Source: Pseudofrankia coriaricola (GTDB lineage: Bacteria; Actinomycetota; Actinomycetes; Frankiales; Frankiaceae). Taken from it: a DNA stretch of 64,000 nucleotides. This document shows positions 1,752 through 35,167 of this stretch, in pieces. The translations under genes were made by a program, and so were the position numbers. Under the pieces are notes generated by a model. That model had not been told where the DNA came from. It saw only the letters and a program-made list of their open reading frames with translations, and searched no databases. Positions within the stretch are counted from its first letter, which is position 1. Every line of letters starts with the position of its first letter. Where the stretch lies: contig NZ_MBLO01000080.1 of the NCBI RefSeq assembly GCF_001854805.1, positions 1 through 64,000 on the forward strand. The letters run 5' to 3'.

Positions 1752-2777
1752 ATGACTGACGAACGGGACGCCGGGCGAGGCCCCGACGCGAGCGAGCGAC
1801 CGGCGGCGGAGGGCCTGAAGGTCGGGCTGTTCGTGGACGCGCGGAACCCCCAGCCGTGGCGGCGCCCCTGGCGGGAGCACTACCCCAGGCTGCTCGACCT
1901 GGCCGCCGAGGCCGACCGGCTCGGCGCGGACTGCATCTGGCTCACCGAACACCACGGGTTCGACGACGGGTACCTTCCGCAGCCCCTCGTGCTGGCGGCG
2001 GCCGCGGCGAGCCGCACGGCGCGGGCGAGGATCGGCACGGCCGTGCTGCTGGCGCCGATCCGCGACCCGGTTCACCTGGCGGAGGAGGCGGCACTCGTCG
2101 ACCTCGTGTCGGGTGGCCGGCTGGAGCTCGGCCTTGGAGCGGGGTACGTGCCGGGCGAGTTCGAGCTGTTCGGCGTCGACATGGCGGCGCGGTTCGCCAC
2201 CCTCGACGCGGTGTTCACCCGGGTGCGCGCCCTGCTGACCGACGGTGGCGTCACCCCGGCGCCTCTGCAGCGTCCGGTGCCGATGTGGCTGGGCTACGGC
2301 GGGCCGGTGGGTGCGCGCAGGGCCGGGCGGATGGGCGCGTCGCTGCTCACCATCGGCCGGCGGGCGGCGGCCGCGTATCTCGAGGGCCTGGCCGAGGGCG
2401 GGCACGACCTCGCGTCGGCCCGGTTGGCCGGCGACGTGGACATCGTGGTGGCCGACGACCCGGAAGCCGCCTACGAACGGATCAGGCCGCACTACCTGTA
2501 CCAGCTGAACTCCTACCGGCAGGCCGGTCGGCTGGGGCCACCGCATTCCGAGGCGGAGCTCGGCGACCGGCTCGGGCATGGCCGCGCCCGCGTTCAGCTG
2601 AACCTGCTCGTGCTGTCGCCCGACGAGGCCGTGACCGAGGTGCGCCGCCGGGTCGCGGGCCTGCCGGTGGCGCACGTCTACACCTGGGCGACGGTCGCCC
2701 AGATGCCCGAGGACCTGGCCGCCCGTCACCTCGAACTGTGGCTCGGACCGGTACGGGACGCCCTGTCGGCGCCCTGA
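1752..2777 (+). CDS. Luciferase-like (probably F420-dependent) oxidoreductase
   Basis: 341 aa. A bacterial-luciferase-like TIM-barrel (PF00296) is visible: the early strand LKVGLFVDARNP, then WLTEHHGFDDGY (the conserved E-H-H after the second strand), LLAPIRDPVHLAEEAALVD, SGGRLELGLGAGYVP and PMWLGYGG. Actinobacterial members typically transfer hydride with F420 or FMNH2; substrates are unknown. GGAGG at 1735-1739 and GGAG at 1741-1744 favour ATG 1752 over an in-frame upstream ATG at 1692, which would add 20 poorly conserved residues. A SnoaL-like gene follows 93 bp downstream, so the two may share a transcript in an oxidative pathway. Confidence 0.8.
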   Translation: MTDERDAGRGPDASERPAAEGLKVGLFVDARNPQPWRRPWREHYPRLLDLAAEADRLGADCIWLTEHHGFDDGYLPQPLVLAAAAASRTARARIGTAVLLAPIRDPVHLAEEAALVDLVSGGRLELGLGAGYVPGEFELFGVDMAARFATLDAVFTRVRALLTDGGVTPAPLQRPVPMWLGYGGPVGARRAGRMGASLLTIGRRAAAAYLEGLAEGGHDLASARLAGDVDIVVADDPEAAYERIRPHYLYQLNSYRQAGRLGPPHSEAELGDRLGHGRARVQLNLLVLSPDEAVTEVRRRVAGLPVAHVYTWATVAQMPEDLAARHLELWLGPVRDALSAP

Positions 2778-2870
2778 CCGCCCGGCCACGCGCACGTCGA
2801 CCCAAGCGACACCAACGACACGCATGACACCAACGACCCGCACGACTTGCATGACCAAGGAGGCGCAGCT

Positions 2871-3248
2871 ATGGACTTGGCCGACCGCCTGGCGCTCGGC
2901 GAGCTTCCGGCCCGCTACGGCGACCTGATCGACGACCGCAACTGGCGGGATCTCGACCAGATCTTTCTACCGGACGCCACGTTCGACATACCCGGTCAGG
3001 TCCTCGACGGGCTGGCCGAGATCCGGACGTTCATGACCCAGGCCCGCCACCCGCGGACCCACATCATGACCAACATCTATGTCGACGAGACGCCGGACGG
3101 CGTCATCCTCCGGTTCCGCCTCGTGGGCATGCGGCCCGACGGCCGGATCAGCACCGGCCGGTACCGCGACGTCGTGGTGAAGCGCCCGGAGGGCTGGCGG
3201 GTGGTAAGCCGGGTCTTCACCGCGACTCCGTACGAGGATCCAGCGTAA
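2871..3248 (+). CDS. SnoaL-like / NTF2-fold protein
   Basis: 125 aa, the size of a single NTF2-like alpha+beta cone domain. The pattern LADRLALGELPARYGDLIDDRNW followed by DATFDIPGQ and later RTHIMTNIYVDE, then RVVSRVFTATPYED, is typical of the SnoaL-like family used as small cyclases, dehydratases or binding proteins. The start is fixed by AAGGAGG at 2857-2863, seven bases before ATG 2871. It lies behind the luciferase-like oxidoreductase on the same strand, a frequent pairing in actinobacterial degradative loci. Confidence 0.75.
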   Translation: MDLADRLALGELPARYGDLIDDRNWRDLDQIFLPDATFDIPGQVLDGLAEIRTFMTQARHPRTHIMTNIYVDETPDGVILRFRLVGMRPDGRISTGRYRDVVVKRPEGWRVVSRVFTATPYEDPA

Positions 3249-3705
3249 AGAACGTTCACCCGACCGTAGTCGTGAAAGATCGCCGGTTCTGTACCCGGAT
3301 CCGAGTTCTGACCCCCTGCCAGGTTCGGATTCGGGTACACATCCGCCGATCAAGCTCATGGCGCGGTGGCACGGCCGGGCCAACGTTGGCTGACGCAGGA
3401 CACTAGCTGGGAACGGGTCGATCACGACTCACCACTTCCGCCCGGCGAAGGCTGTGAGACGCGACACTCGGGCCGCGAGGGCCGTCGATGGGCCGCCGGA
3501 GGCCGACCAGCGCCTGTGAGCTGGACATCTGTCGCGAGACCCATAGCCCTGTGCACGGGTGTTCAGCGCGTACCGTACCGAAACAGGCAGCGAGAAAACA
3601 CACACCGAACTACACTGATGGCGCGACGGAGAATGCGACGTGTAGCCCCGGTCAGCCACGTTCCCGCGCGCCGGAAGAGCAGACCGACAGGCTGGAGTCG
3701 ATGCC
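3249..3705. other. Gene-poor stretch with one inverted repeat
   Basis: I see no credible gene in these 457 bases. Short open frames occur on both strands but have no coding character or ribosome sites. The only structure is the inverted repeat at 3290-3339. Confidence 0.5.
3290..3339. repeat. Imperfect 17-bp inverted repeat downstream of the SnoaL-like gene
   Basis: TGTACCCGGATCCGAGT (3290-3306) is mirrored by GTTCGGATTCGGGTACA (3323-3339), matching at 14 of 17 positions around a 16-base loop. It is 42 bp past the stop and may be a transcript-end hairpin or the footprint of a lost element. Confidence 0.5.
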
Positions 3706-31654: not shown

Positions 31655-31700
31655 CGTCAAAGACGCTTGACGCCTCGGGGGGCGTCAATCTATTTTGACG
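31655..31700. promoter_or_regulatory. Two CGTCAA-N6-TTGACG operator units
   Basis: CGTCAA at 31655-31660 and TTGACG at 31667-31672 form one 18-bp palindromic unit. CGTCAA at 31683-31688 and TTGACG at 31695-31700 form a second, exactly 28 bp further on. The second unit ends two bases before ATG 31703. The inner pair also makes an 8-bp inverted repeat (TTGACGCC/GGCGTCAA). Confidence 0.75.
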
Positions 31701-31702
31701 GT

Positions 31703-31939
31703 ATGAGCGAGGCGGTGACGCGAGGTAGCCAGATGGTGGAGGCGGCGGGTGATCCTGATCCGGCGACCGGTCTGGCCGCGGTGGCGGCGTTGCGGGGCCT
31801 GGTGGAGGTGCTGGAGGAGTTGCAGGTCGACAACGCCCGTGCCCAGGGCTGGTCGTGGCGTGACATCGCCCGGGTCCTCGGCGTGACCAAGCAGGCGATG
31901 CACTACAAGCATGCCGGCCGGCTGCGGGGGCGGGACTGA
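31703..31939 (+). CDS. Small helix-turn-helix DNA-binding protein
   Basis: 78 aa. The C-terminal two-thirds read ALRGLVEVLEELQVDNARAQ and WSWRDIARVLGVTKQAMHYK, a clear HTH (recognition helix TKQAMHYKHAG). The duplicated palindromes immediately in front of the start are the obvious binding sites, so the gene is probably autoregulated. It is joined to the Clp-N gene by a TGATG overlap. This HTH plus Clp-N pair is recurrent in actinobacteria, from my recollection of the families. Confidence 0.75.
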   Translation: MSEAVTRGSQMVEAAGDPDPATGLAAVAALRGLVEVLEELQVDNARAQGWSWRDIARVLGVTKQAMHYKHAGRLRGRD

Positions 31940-32607
31940 TGGCGCAGATGGCGGGGCGGCCCTCGGGTGCCAGTCTGGAGATCAGGCGGTTGGCGGAGGC
32001 CGAACGTGACCGCCTGGGCCATCCGTATCTCGGTGATGAGCATCTGTTGCTCGGGGTGCTCGCGCACGCGGCGAACCCAGCCGCGACGATGCTGCACGAA
32101 CGCGGACTGGACCTGGCAACCGCGCGGACCCAGATCGCGCGGATCGTGGCGGACTCCGGGCCGCTGGCCCGGGACGACGCCGCGCTGTTGCGGGAGTTCG
32201 GCGTGGACGTGACCCAGATGCGCCGCCAGCTGGAATCGACGTTCGGGACACTCGCGGTCCACGACGCCGCCCGGCGGGTACGCCGACGGCCATGGTGGCG
32301 CGGGCGGGCCTCCCACAACCCGCTGTGCGGGCCCTTCTATCTGATCAAGCGGGCGCAGCTCGTTGCCTGCACCACCGCGGGCGCGCGTGGCGAGGCGGAG
32401 ATCCGCCCCGAACACCTGCTCTATGGTGTGCTGCGCGTCGCGCGTGACCCACTCGGCTCCGGGCTGGGCCGACGCGGGCGTCGCGACGCCGCGCGCCTGG
32501 GACTGCCGGTCGGCGCGGCCCATCCGGTCCGGCTGCTGCTAACCGGCCAGGGCATCGACCTCGACCAGCTCGGCGAGGATCTGCTCGGCAGCCTCGCGGC
32601 GACCTGA
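31939..32607 (+). CDS. Clp N-terminal-domain protein without ATPase
   Basis: 222 aa made of Clp-N repeats: EAERDRLGHPYLGDEHLLLG with VLAHAANPAATMLHERGLDL, and a second half with ARGEAEIRPEHLLYGVLRVA. The conserved H-P-Y-L-G-D-E-H-L-L-L-G core is intact, but no AAA+ module follows, so it cannot unfold proteins itself. A substrate-binding or adaptor role toward ClpC is the simplest idea. A Trp/Arg-rich segment (RRRPWWRGRAS) separates the two halves. ATG 31939 shares a base with the preceding stop. Confidence 0.8.
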   Translation: MAQMAGRPSGASLEIRRLAEAERDRLGHPYLGDEHLLLGVLAHAANPAATMLHERGLDLATARTQIARIVADSGPLARDDAALLREFGVDVTQMRRQLESTFGTLAVHDAARRVRRRPWWRGRASHNPLCGPFYLIKRAQLVACTTAGARGEAEIRPEHLLYGVLRVARDPLGSGLGRRGRRDAARLGLPVGAAHPVRLLLTGQGIDLDQLGEDLLGSLAAT

Positions 32608-32628
32608 TCGGATGAAAGGCGGGCCCAC

Positions 32629-32937
32629 ATGACGACGCCAGTAGCGGCCACGGCGTCAGACGCCGCCGAACCGCTGGAGTGCTGGTGCTGCGCTGGCACC
32701 TATCAAGAGCCTGACCTGGTCCGGCTCGGGCGCCATCCCGAGGTCGGGGTCTGCCTGGCCTGCGCGCACTTCCTGCATCAGCAAGCCCGCGGCCGTGAGG
32801 ACGCACGACGCCCCTCACCCGCCGCCCGCCTACGCGACGGGCTACGGGCCGGCCGGCGGCTGGTCATCCGGCGCCGATGGCATCAGAACCCCGTCATCGG
32901 CCGGCCGCTGCGCTGGCTGGGCCGCCGTCTGCCCTAG
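32629..32937 (+). CDS. Small zinc-ribbon-like protein
   Basis: 102 aa. Cys clusters ECWCCAGTY and VCLACAHF could bind one zinc ion, and the C-terminal half is strongly basic (RLRDGLRAGRRLVIRRRWHQ). It lies 21 bases after the Clp-N gene with AAAGGCGGG as ribosome site, so it completes a three-gene unit with the small HTH. It may bind nucleic acid; function unknown. Confidence 0.65.
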   Translation: MTTPVAATASDAAEPLECWCCAGTYQEPDLVRLGRHPEVGVCLACAHFLHQQARGREDARRPSPAARLRDGLRAGRRLVIRRRWHQNPVIGRPLRWLGRRLP

Positions 32938-33021: not shown

Positions 33022-33363
33022 CTACGCCGGGTCTTGATCGCCGACCGCCGGGGGCCTCTGAGGGCCGGCCGGCAGGTCAAGCGCCGCGCGGAGCTGGGCC
33101 GGCGACGGGATCCCGACCAGCCGGCCGGTCTCGTCGCGGTAGAGCCGACACGACAGGCTCGCCGAACGACCCGGCCCAGCAAAGGGGTCGACACCGTCGA
33201 CGAGCAAGGTGGGCGATCCACTCATACCCACCTCCGCCGCCAGATCCTCGCTATCGACCACACGGACGGTGACGACATCGCCGGCGCCGACCAGGCGACC
33301 GAGCCGCTCCTGAAGCGTCGTGACGTGCGGGCAGCCCGGGACGTGCAGAATCGTCAACCTCAT
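33022..33363 (-). CDS. Thioredoxin-fold protein with alkylmercury-lyase-like C-terminal motif
   Basis: 113 aa. LTILHVPGCPHVTTLQERLG has the thioredoxin-like first strand and helix, with a single active-site Cys (C-P-H-V). GMSGSPTLLVDGVDPFAGPG has the cis-Pro, and SASLSCRLYRDETG resembles the SCRLY segment of actinobacterial proteins annotated as MerB-related. GGGAGGG precedes ATG 33363. The frame stays open far upstream across the sigma-factor gene, but that is antisense noise. A role in thiol or metal chemistry is an inference. Confidence 0.65.
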   Translation of the reverse strand: MRLTILHVPGCPHVTTLQERLGRLVGAGDVVTVRVVDSEDLAAEVGMSGSPTLLVDGVDPFAGPGRSASLSCRLYRDETGRLVGIPSPAQLRAALDLPAGPQRPPAVGDQDPA

Positions 33364-33575
33364 CGGTGGTCTCCCTCCCCGGGTCCATGATGTCCTCGGC
33401 GCGACCCGGGTTCCCATCGCCGTGCGCTCGGGCGAGCCGAGCGAGGACCGGTCCCGACAAAGCCGCCACGGGCAGACGGGCGTGCGTACCGGTCCTGCGC
33501 CACGGTCGCCTGCGCTGGGAGGAGCCTCGATGAGGACCTGGCTCCTGCTCCCGCATGCAGAGCCATGTGGCCTGG

Positions 33576-34808
33576 CTATGGGGGTGGGCGGAGTTGGGCG
33601 GTGCGGCGGGTGAGGTAGTGCTGTTCGGGCAGGCTGGCGGTCATCTGGGCGGCTCGTTGGTAGGACTCTCGGGCGGCGTCGGGGTCGCCTGCCTGTTCGA
33701 GGAGGTGGGCGCGGACGGCTTCGAGGCGGTGGCTGTGGGTGAGCCGGTCGTCGGTGTCGAGGGCGCCGAGGGCGGTGAGGCCGGCGGTCGGGCCGTGGAC
33801 CATGGCGAGGGCGACGGCGCGACTCAGAGTGACGACAGGTCCGGGTGCGACCTGGGCGAGCACGTCGTAGAGGGCGAGGATCTGCGGCCAGTCGGTGTCG
33901 GCGGCGGTCGGGGCCTCGTCGTGGAGAGCGGCGATGGCGGCCTGGATCTGGTACTGGCCGATCGGTCCGGTGCCCAGGGTGCGGGTGAGCAACGTCTGCC
34001 CTTCGGTGATCGCCGCTCGGTCCCACAGGTCCCTGTGCTGGTCGGCCAGGGGCATGAGGAAGCCGTCGCGGTCGGTTCGCGCGGCGCGGCGGGCATCGGT
34101 GAGCAGCATCAATGCCAGCAGCCCGGCGACCTCACCCTCGTGGGGTAGCAGCCCGTGCAGCAGGCGGGTGAGCCGGATCGCTTCGGCGGTCAGGTCGACC
34201 CGGGTCAGTTCCGGTCCCGAGGTGGTGGTGTAGCCCTCGTTGAAGATCAGGTACAGCACGTGCAGGACCACGGCGAGCCGGCTGGCGCGGTCGGCGGATG
34301 TGGGCAGGTCGAACCGGGCGCCGGTGTCGCGGATGCGCTGTTTGGCCCGGCTGATCCGCCGTGCCATGGTGGCCTCCGGCATGAGGAACGCCGAGGCGAT
34401 CTGCGCGGTGCTGAGGCCACCGACCGCGCGGAGGGTGAGGGCGAGCTGTGACGGCTGCGACAGCGCCGGGTGGCAGCACAGGAACAGCAGGACGAGCGTG
34501 TCGTCGGGTCCAGCGGCAAGCGGCGGGTGGGTGGGGTCGAGCGCGGCCGTTGCCTCGCGGCGGCGTCGGGCGCTGTCGCTGCGCCAGTGGTCGACCAGCA
34601 TTCGGGTGGCGACGGTGGTCAGCCACGCTTGAGGCCGGTCCGGGATGCCCTCGGTGGGCCATTGCACGGTCGCGGCGAGCATCGCTTCCTGGACCGCGTC
34701 CTCGCAGGCGTCGAACTGACCGTGGCGGCGCACGAGCGCGCCGAGGACCCGCGGCGCCAGGTCGCGCAGCAGGTCCCCGAACGGCTCGCCCACGATCGCT
34801 CGCCTCAC
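33576..34808 (-). CDS. ECF sigma factor, DGPF-associated (ECF42-like) with C-terminal extension
   Basis: 410 aa. Sigma region 2 is GALVRRHGQFDACEDAVQEA, region 4 is LALTLRAVGGLSTAQIASAF with EATMARRISRAKQRIRD. The long C-terminal domain (DUF6596-like; VLYLIFNEGYTTTSG, AIAALHDEAPTAADTDWPQI, then a TPR-like end) is typical of ECF42 sigma factors, which lack an anti-sigma factor and travel with DGPF proteins. Exactly such a gene precedes it with a GTGA overlap. The extension is thought to regulate activity. Confidence 0.85.
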   Translation of the reverse strand: MRRAIVGEPFGDLLRDLAPRVLGALVRRHGQFDACEDAVQEAMLAATVQWPTEGIPDRPQAWLTTVATRMLVDHWRSDSARRRREATAALDPTHPPLAAGPDDTLVLLFLCCHPALSQPSQLALTLRAVGGLSTAQIASAFLMPEATMARRISRAKQRIRDTGARFDLPTSADRASRLAVVLHVLYLIFNEGYTTTSGPELTRVDLTAEAIRLTRLLHGLLPHEGEVAGLLALMLLTDARRAARTDRDGFLMPLADQHRDLWDRAAITEGQTLLTRTLGTGPIGQYQIQAAIAALHDEAPTAADTDWPQILALYDVLAQVAPGPVVTLSRAVALAMVHGPTAGLTALGALDTDDRLTHSHRLEAVRAHLLEQAGDPDAARESYQRAAQMTASLPEQHYLTRRTAQLRPPP

Positions 34809-35167
34809 ATCTGCTGGGGCGGCTCGTCCATGATCCGCCGGATCTCCATCGGGTACTCGGTGACCGCGACGACCTCCGAGGCGATCTCGACCGCCCGCTC
34901 GTAGCTGCCTTCGATGACCCAGTACCCGGCGAGGGATTCCTTGATCTCGGCGAACGGGCCGTCGGTCGGCGTGGGGGCGCCGTCGGTGAACCGCACAGTC
35001 GTGGCCTGGGTCGGGTCGGTCAGGTGCCGGCTTTCGACCACCTCACCGGACTCACGCAGCTCACGGTCCATCCGCATCATCGTGGCCTGCATCTCGGTGA
35101 TCCACTCCGGGCTCCGGTCGGCCAGCGAGGTGCCCAGACCACCGAACATCATGATCATGTACTTCAT
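34805..35167 (-). CDS. DGPF-domain (YCII-related) protein
   Basis: 120 aa. MKYMIMMFGGLG opens a YCII-like ferredoxin fold; VRFTDGAPTPTDGPFAEIKE contains the Asp-Gly-Pro-Phe motif; GYWVIEGSYERAVEIA follows. Such proteins accompany ECF42 sigma factors and may sense the stress or modulate the factor. It is translated first, with its stop overlapping the sigma start. Confidence 0.85.
   Translation of the reverse strand: MKYMIMMFGGLGTSLADRSPEWITEMQATMMRMDRELRESGEVVESRHLTDPTQATTVRFTDGAPTPTDGPFAEIKESLAGYWVIEGSYERAVEIASEVVAVTEYPMEIRRIMDEPPQQM

Follow-up and report, generated by a model that had tools for sequence, protein, structure and literature searches.

A split, two-protein operon related to mycobacterial ClpC2 in Pseudofrankia coriaricola, with a double operator most likely read by its small HTH protein

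Introduction

In mycobacterial ClpC2 a dimer domain at the N-terminus is joined to a C-terminal Clp_N domain (PMC10030653). The protein represses itself, and its operator, CGTCAAC-n5-GTTGACG, lies one to two nucleotides before its own ORF; in many species two copies of the operator cover the −35 and −10 regions, and a leaderless transcript was suggested (PMC10030653). When cyclomarin A binds to Clp_N the DNA is freed, and ClpC2 then rises and acts as a sponge (PMC10030653). According to the accessible part of a study in M. tuberculosis, cyclomarin raised ClpC2, while the tested ecumicin analogue and ilamycin did not (PMC12913811). The contact of ClpC2 with DNA has been placed in a Clp_N helix with R185 and R189. 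The R185A/R189A substitutions weakened DNA binding and raised expression 2.0-fold, which indicates that the Clp_N domain contributes to DNA binding in the fused protein; DNA binding was also poor with the CTD alone or with R57A (PMC10030653). The N-terminal fragment seen in the crystal arose by proteolysis in the drop (PMC10030653). An HTH region in ClpC2 was noted by HHpred together with RelI, the antitoxin of the RelS-RelI pair (9SDC), in the accessible part of another report (PMC13284704, 2026).

In the present work we analysed a window of 64,000 nucleotides from Pseudofrankia coriaricola (contig NZ_MBLO01000080.1, positions 1 to 64,000), in which a small HTH gene, a Clp_N gene and a cysteine-rich gene follow a duplicated palindrome. 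The operon resembles the published ClpC2 type of operator and protein, and it is probably a split, two-protein form of that switch, in which an HTH repressor and a Clp_N sensor or decoy would work in trans. Neither the split pair nor the reading code described below was found in the accessible literature on ClpC2 and Clp N-domains, outside which lay most subscription papers and all bioRxiv preprints.

Results

A sequence-only reading of this DNA had claimed two CGTCAA-N6-TTGACG units, 28 bp apart and ending two bases before the HTH gene, and exact coordinates bear it out (Table 1). The distance from start to start is 28 bp, and between the end of the proximal unit at 31700 and the HTH ATG at 31703 stand the two bases GT. 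Exact single units were found twice in the window and never in 100 shuffles; the 46-bp double unit, when as many as 3 mismatches were allowed, was matched once in the window and, again, in none of 100 shuffles. Single units with 2 mismatches were near chance (5 found, shuffle mean 2.26, 6 of 100 shuffles reaching 5), so that the strength of the operator signal lies in its exact, doubled form. Throughout the organism's own genome (11,203,906 bases) the exact unit occurs at these two places only, and the reversed pattern, used as a control, occurs nowhere. When further target sites were sought in this genome with a relaxed half-site pattern, the proximal unit alone was returned; therefore a regulon beyond the operon is not indicated by that pattern.

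Table 1. Features of the operon and its surroundings, and HTH-family genes of the same genome with their operators
Feature	Position	Strand	Basis or remark
Distal operator unit CGTCAA-N6-TTGACG	31655-31672	.	right half is the predicted −35 element; position kept in L011
Proximal operator unit CGTCAA-N6-TTGACG	31683-31700	.	overlaps predicted −10 element
Predicted promoter TTGACG-18-TATTTT	31667-31696	+	start expected near 31703
78-aa HTH protein, predicted dimeric autorepressor	31703-31939	+	profile, covariation, model
222-aa double Clp_N protein, predicted sensor/decoy partner	31939-32607	+	Pfam PF02861, split-family profile
102-aa basic CWCC/CxxC (zinc-ribbon-like) protein	32629-32937	+	CWCC and CLAC pairs, pI 11.1
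DF-family thioredoxin-like protein gene, convergent	33022-33366	-	NF049942 E 2.4e-11, below cut-off
G025 locus L244 (G025:C40)	1192-2664 and 2756-3385		transposase-like ORF upstream of Clp_N/cysteine-gene copy
Window HTH, Y68			operator GTCAA, then A, T or G
C48 (L100) HTH, T65/R68			GTCAGC in 3/4 half-sites
C246 (L196) HTH, S65/A68			GTCAGT in 3/4 half-sites
C243 (L238) fused ClpC2-like gene, A65/K68			GTCAAC, N5
C191 (L239) HTH, S65/E68			GTCAGG
C206 (L240) HTH, A65/E68			GTCAAG and GTCAGG, N5

Between 31400 and 33100, TTGACG-18-TATTTT is the sole promoter-like (sigma-70-like) site. The promoter sits on the operator and at a place from which transcription would begin with the A of the HTH ATG or a base beside it, so that the operon promoter is predicted to be leaderless. 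As in fused ClpC2, the duplicated operator lies over −35 and −10 and ends 1-2 nt before the start codon. The window units, however, read NGTCAAN-N4-NTTGACN; their half-sites are spaced by N4, not N5, and the inner C/G pair of the ClpC2 operator is missing. A terminator-like hairpin at 31667-31688 was considered and rejected, being the stretch between the units, upstream of the predicted start.

Searched against Pfam and NCBIfam, the 78-aa protein gave HTH matches below cut-off alone. A match to it at E ≤ 1e-6 is present in at least 178 of 393 genomes of the class, and 13 proteins from these class-wide matches were made into a profile (A1). The profile matched RelI (9SDC) at E 1.1e-5 and, at E 0.0025, chain residues 37-72 of 8ADA, the crystal of ClpC2 residues 4-72. 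The latter match stops at residue 72, which is the end of the crystal chain, just before the recognition helix; in 30 fully read fused homologues the residues that come next, [ST]KQAAQK[RK]F, occupy the place of the recognition helix. Since the chain ends at 72 and the helix follows in full-length relatives, the DNA-reading helix is most likely missing from the solved ClpC2 N-domain. Positions 35 and 46 of the window HTH protein correspond to D46 and R57, which form the published salt bridge of the dimer. The window has E35 and R46, so the residues of the bridge are present and may pair in the same way. Among 166 non-fused rows, residue 35 is acidic in 158 and R46 is present in 130, which leaves 36 without R46; all 35 fused rows have both features. 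The structural model of the HTH protein (pLDDT 84.5) has helices at 3-15, 20-47, 52-59 and 63-74. Foldseek returned no match to it at E ≤ 0.001; the best VIA match was Fis (Z 5.8, 72 aligned, rmsd 5.2), and 8ADA and 9SDC were absent among the best 50 matches of the fold search.

To see how the pair is organised elsewhere, we compared 203 HTH loci, the number left after removal of exact duplicates (2 without a readable helix motif). They were hand-picked from the listed matches to spread over genera, and the matches passed over included strong ones as well as weak. A separate Clp_N gene lies downstream in 151 (split), the two parts are fused in 35, and 17 are without a recognised Clp_N nearby; as 30 of the 35 fused loci came from a separate one-family search, 151:35 does not measure how common the split and fused forms are. 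When the search pattern specified no bases but GTCA and TGAC, N4 units were found in 131 of the 151 split loci (two units in 114) and N5 units in 0. Of the 20 others, 18 have CAAC-N4-GTTG units, in most of which the outer base is altered, and N4-spaced units of any kind occur in 149/151. The sequence-only reading had proposed to look for operator units near homologues of the HTH gene, and these 149 loci answer that check in its favour. Fused loci have N5 units instead (31/35, two units in 27, one locus also with an N4 unit), and N4 units also precede 12 of the 17 HTH genes near which no Clp_N was recognised, one of them also with N5. Control stretches taken after genes gave 0 N4 and 2 N5 units in 101,141 bp with the GTCA pattern, and 0 in 75,108 bp with the CAAC-N4-GTTG pattern. 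In split loci with two units the spacing is 27 or 28 bp in 108/114, and the 'TA' of the −10 element falls at unit positions 9-10 in 90/114 proximal versus 10/114 distal units.

The split two-protein form, as judged from gene order and operator, is thus widespread among the relatives sampled. The window has the HTH gene upstream of a separate Clp_N gene, two N4 units, and the proximal unit over the −10, as the 151 split pairs usually do with units about 28 bp apart. By its sequence it is a divergent subtype of this class: unlike other split pairs, its Clp_N is without the MFERF-type start, its recognition helix is MHYKH where VHKKH is usual in split relatives, and a CWCC gene is added. As a separate observation, the half-site GCAAC replaces GTCAAC in some split loci (e.g. 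L193, L084, L098 and L225), often with one GCAAC and one GTCAAC half in each unit.

We then examined covariation of the recognition helix with the operator, using the numbering of the window HTH protein (LGVTKQAMHYKH being residues 59-70) and of the half-site NGTCA-6-7. The set comprised 142 non-fused loci with units (130 split and 12 without Clp_N nearby). Counted by half-site, A65 goes with A6 (435/460) and S or T65 with G6 (44/62); K68 goes with C7 (311/382), E68 with G7 (10/10), Q68 with G7 (21/44), H or Y68 with A or T7 (11/12), and A or T68 with T7 (10/14). The window's own Y68 enters this rule through 2 related loci only. Counted by locus, the two-by-two tables are 16, 1; 1, 124 for S/T65 with G6 (p 5e-19), 117, 3; 5, 17 for K/R68 with C7, and 12, 3; 2, 125 for E/Q68 with G7. 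The associations persist in 59 units collapsed at 70% identity (S/T65-G6 10, 0; 0, 49, p 1.6e-11; K/R68-C7, p 2e-8; E/Q68-G7, p 8e-7). Over 2000 permutations of 43 units (65% identity), the pairs 65-with-6, 68-with-7 and 62-with-6 exceed every permutation, and two further pairs are weaker, 68-with-6 (reached by 7/2000) and 63-with-1 (6/2000).

Common descent was taken into account with a tree of 130 loci from which the helix was left out, and on which the traits change 7 to 11 times. Its supported branches give 2, 4 and 2 independent pairs for the three residue-base rules, too few for sign tests to reach 0.05. In 200 random pairings the expected base direction was obtained on average in 1.8/2, 3.3/4 and 1.8/2; the opposite direction had a mean of 0.0 after rounding, and single pairings with one opposite case occur. 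For the cross controls (65 with C7, 68 with G6) the mean was 0.1 in the same direction, and 1.0 of 2 and 1.2 of 4 in the reverse direction. Covariation of recognition-helix residues 65 and 68 with operator bases 6 and 7 suggests that the operator is most likely read by the small HTH protein rather than by Clp_N.

The same genome contains at least six HTH-family matches, the window's included. The five further genes each have their own operator variant, and these mostly follow the two-residue code (Table 1). Two of them, on C191 and C206, lie outside the set from which the code was derived; there E68 goes with G7 in 6/6, S65 with G6 in 2/2 and A65 with A6 in 2/4 half-sites, and no Clp_N match was found in the stretches fetched around them. 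Elsewhere in this genome, L241 (C247) and L242 (C243) encode double Clp_N proteins, the former with a C-terminal extension; neither an HTH match nor units were found in the sequence examined around them.

The HTH and Clp_N ORFs overlap by one base within TGATG, and in a Pfam search of the 222-aa protein Clp_N is the only domain found (PF02861, E 4.5e-13). Both results agree with the earlier description of an HTH gene joined by TGATG to a Clp_N protein without an AAA+ domain, by which this protein differs from the AAA+ Clp ATPases. A profile of the split-family Clp_N proteins matches its residues 18-171, covering both repeats, at E 1.6e-30; the structure model is poor (pLDDT 48). At the positions of cyclomarin contact, in ClpC1 numbering, the window has F2 replaced by A, F5 by P, F80 by Y (the F80 column of the alignment may be off by one, the neighbouring residue being F) and E89 by L. 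As the four positions examined all differ, a cyclomarin-like ligand is not indicated. The positions of R185 and R189 are T and A in the window. Among the 130 split loci with units, R or K stands at both sites in 20, so the operator is kept even in loci that lack the published contact residues.

The third gene, as the sequence-only reading had it, encodes a basic cysteine (zinc-ribbon-like) protein, and the paired CWCC and CLAC motifs and the pI agree. It gave no Pfam or NCBIfam match at E ≤ 1. Its family occurs in 16/393 genomes at E ≤ 0.001, and we inspected the neighbourhoods of 14 loci that match at E below 1e-10 (L011, L104-L115 and the window). All of these but L011 and L115, hence 12 of the 14, have a DF-family, merA-like or merB-like gene no more than 1.5 kb away, a raw count in which some matches are partial or below NCBIfam cut-offs. 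In L105-L114 this small CWCC/CxxC family was seen recurrently beside merA-like, merB-like, DF-family or DinB_2 genes. DF-family genes are a recurrent neighbour of the CWCC gene in other loci; the convergent DF-family gene of the window is an uncertain member of the system. The window differs from the other 11 CWCC loci in its adjoining HTH and Clp_N genes, for which no match was found within their 1.5-kb flanks; a CWCC gene beside Clp_N occurs in the window, L011 and G025 only. The zinc protein is thus no general component of the switch: it adjoins an HTH/Clp_N pair in the window and L011, and in G025 a Clp_N gene without HTH. Farther along the window, a sigma-70-like/DUF6596 gene and a YCII-domain gene adjoin each other on the minus strand (33576-35167).

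Two residues of the second Clp_N repeat, Cys130 and Cys144, are common to the window, L011 and G025. Cys144 is in no other aligned Clp_N, and a cysteine in the gappy Cys130 column is also found in six other loci. Shared cysteines and the context of the CWCC family together give a lead only, toward a thiol- or metal-gated subtype in which Cys130/Cys144 would sense a thiol-reactive metal or electrophile instead of a peptide antibiotic, and the CWCC protein would buffer the same stress; we hold this to be improbable as things stand.

Conservation of the locus was seen in L011, a metagenome-assembled contig titled Pseudonocardiales, which has all three genes of the operon (identity to the window 87% for HTH and 77% for Clp_N) and both operator units, in register and at the window distances. 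When the two sequences are aligned, the six outer bases of each half-site are identical in both units, whereas differences affect most of the 10 bp that separate the units and most inner bases of the distal unit. G025, a genome of the same family, contains a Clp_N gene (87% identical) and the cysteine gene, with HTH and units absent nearby. Directly upstream of this copy is a transposase-like ORF of 490 aa, so identified from its sequence and with no family match, and an insertion has probably cost this copy its HTH gene and operator. In the family, 2/35 genomes, the own genome included, have Clp_N at E ≤ 1e-15, and with so patchy an occurrence acquisition of the locus by horizontal transfer is likely. 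A search for a carrier among tRNAs, plasmids, viral contigs and GC content found none: the window has no tRNA, neither HTH nor Clp_N had a plasmid match, no viral contig had a confirmed relative of the window HTH, and between 28 and 38 kb the GC content stays within 66-73% and does not jump at the locus.

Discussion

The operon shares with ClpC2 (Rv2667, M. smegmatis clpC2) an HTH-like dimer domain and a double Clp_N, a duplicated palindromic GTCAA-type operator, a predicted leaderless start and predicted self-repression. In contrast to ClpC2, these parts are two overlapping genes and not one polypeptide, the cyclomarin-contact residues and R185/R189 are absent, and a third, cysteine-rich gene is added, which by sequence belongs to the CWCC family found near merA-like, merB-like and DF-family genes. 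Because fusion, n5 spacing and cyclomarin contacts were looked for and not found, we regard the locus as a split relative of ClpC2 and not as ClpC2 itself.

Sequence comparison supports the identity of the operator, the HTH protein as its reader, the overlap with the promoter and the operon structure. The 78-aa HTH protein is likely to bind as a dimer to the two palindromic units over −35 and −10 of its own leaderless promoter and, by binding there, to shut the operon off. By analogy with ClpC2, Clp_N is likely a sensor and decoy. Translationally coupled to the HTH gene, it would act in trans where fused ClpC2 acts in cis, and would bind a ligand that otherwise occupies the ClpC1 N-domain, such as a Clp-targeting molecule or a misfolded protein. 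From the fused homologue only, we infer that the ligand would relieve repression and that Clp_N would then accumulate as a decoy or sponge; the coupling of HTH to Clp_N and its trigger are likewise inferred. The autoregulated HTH/Clp_N switch proposed from the sequence alone is thus well supported by comparison with L011 and its units, with the widespread split pairs that have units, and with self-repressing fused ClpC2. Its 'proteolysis adaptor' is not the best reading of Clp_N, because the role shown for the fused relative is that of sensor and decoy for ClpC1.

Plain negative autoregulation would be simpler. The HTH protein would set the level of the operon and Clp_N would be a constitutive holdase or ClpC1 modulator, with no gating; contact between HTH and Clp_N is putative, and the window Clp_N has lost the cyclomarin-contact residues. 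We think this possible but doubtful, given that HTH and Clp_N are one polypeptide in the 35 fused loci, that a ligand on Clp_N lifts repression in mycobacterial ClpC2 (PMC10030653), and that F2 is kept in 107/150 and F80 in 93/150 aligned split rows. Derepression by proteolysis, in which Clp_N would either deliver the HTH protein to ClpC1/ClpP when the cell is stressed or shield it from them, is unlikely: Clp_N is the N-domain of ClpC proteins and the own genome has an open frame of 858 aa with two Clp_N matches, ClpC-like in size, but the fused homologue works by ligand release. Very unlikely is a reading of the operator by Clp_N through the R185/R189 helix, as proposed for ClpC2, with HTH only dimerising Clp_N. 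The reduced DNA binding of R185A/R189A ClpC2 (PMC10030653) speaks for it; against it stand the scarcity of paired basic residues among split loci and their replacement by T and A in the window, the operator bases that follow HTH residues, and the units before 12/17 HTH genes near which no Clp_N was recognised. A toxin-antitoxin pair, suggested by the related small HTH protein RelI (9SDC) and by the link between RelI and ClpC2 in the accessible part of PMC13284704, is scarcely credible, as the partner here is a double Clp_N protein and not a RelE/BrnT-like nuclease, whereas RelI is paired there with an RNase toxin and no Clp_N.

For the split, two-protein ClpC2-type switch that we prefer, the comparison with the fused protein matters in that ClpC2 protects mycobacteria from an antibiotic attacking an essential protease. 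The HTH protein as probable reader of the operator may be compared with the published view, which places DNA contact in Clp_N. Finally, with at least six HTH genes and different operators in this one genome, the two-residue reading code may explain how parallel switches within a cell's genome stay insulated from one another.
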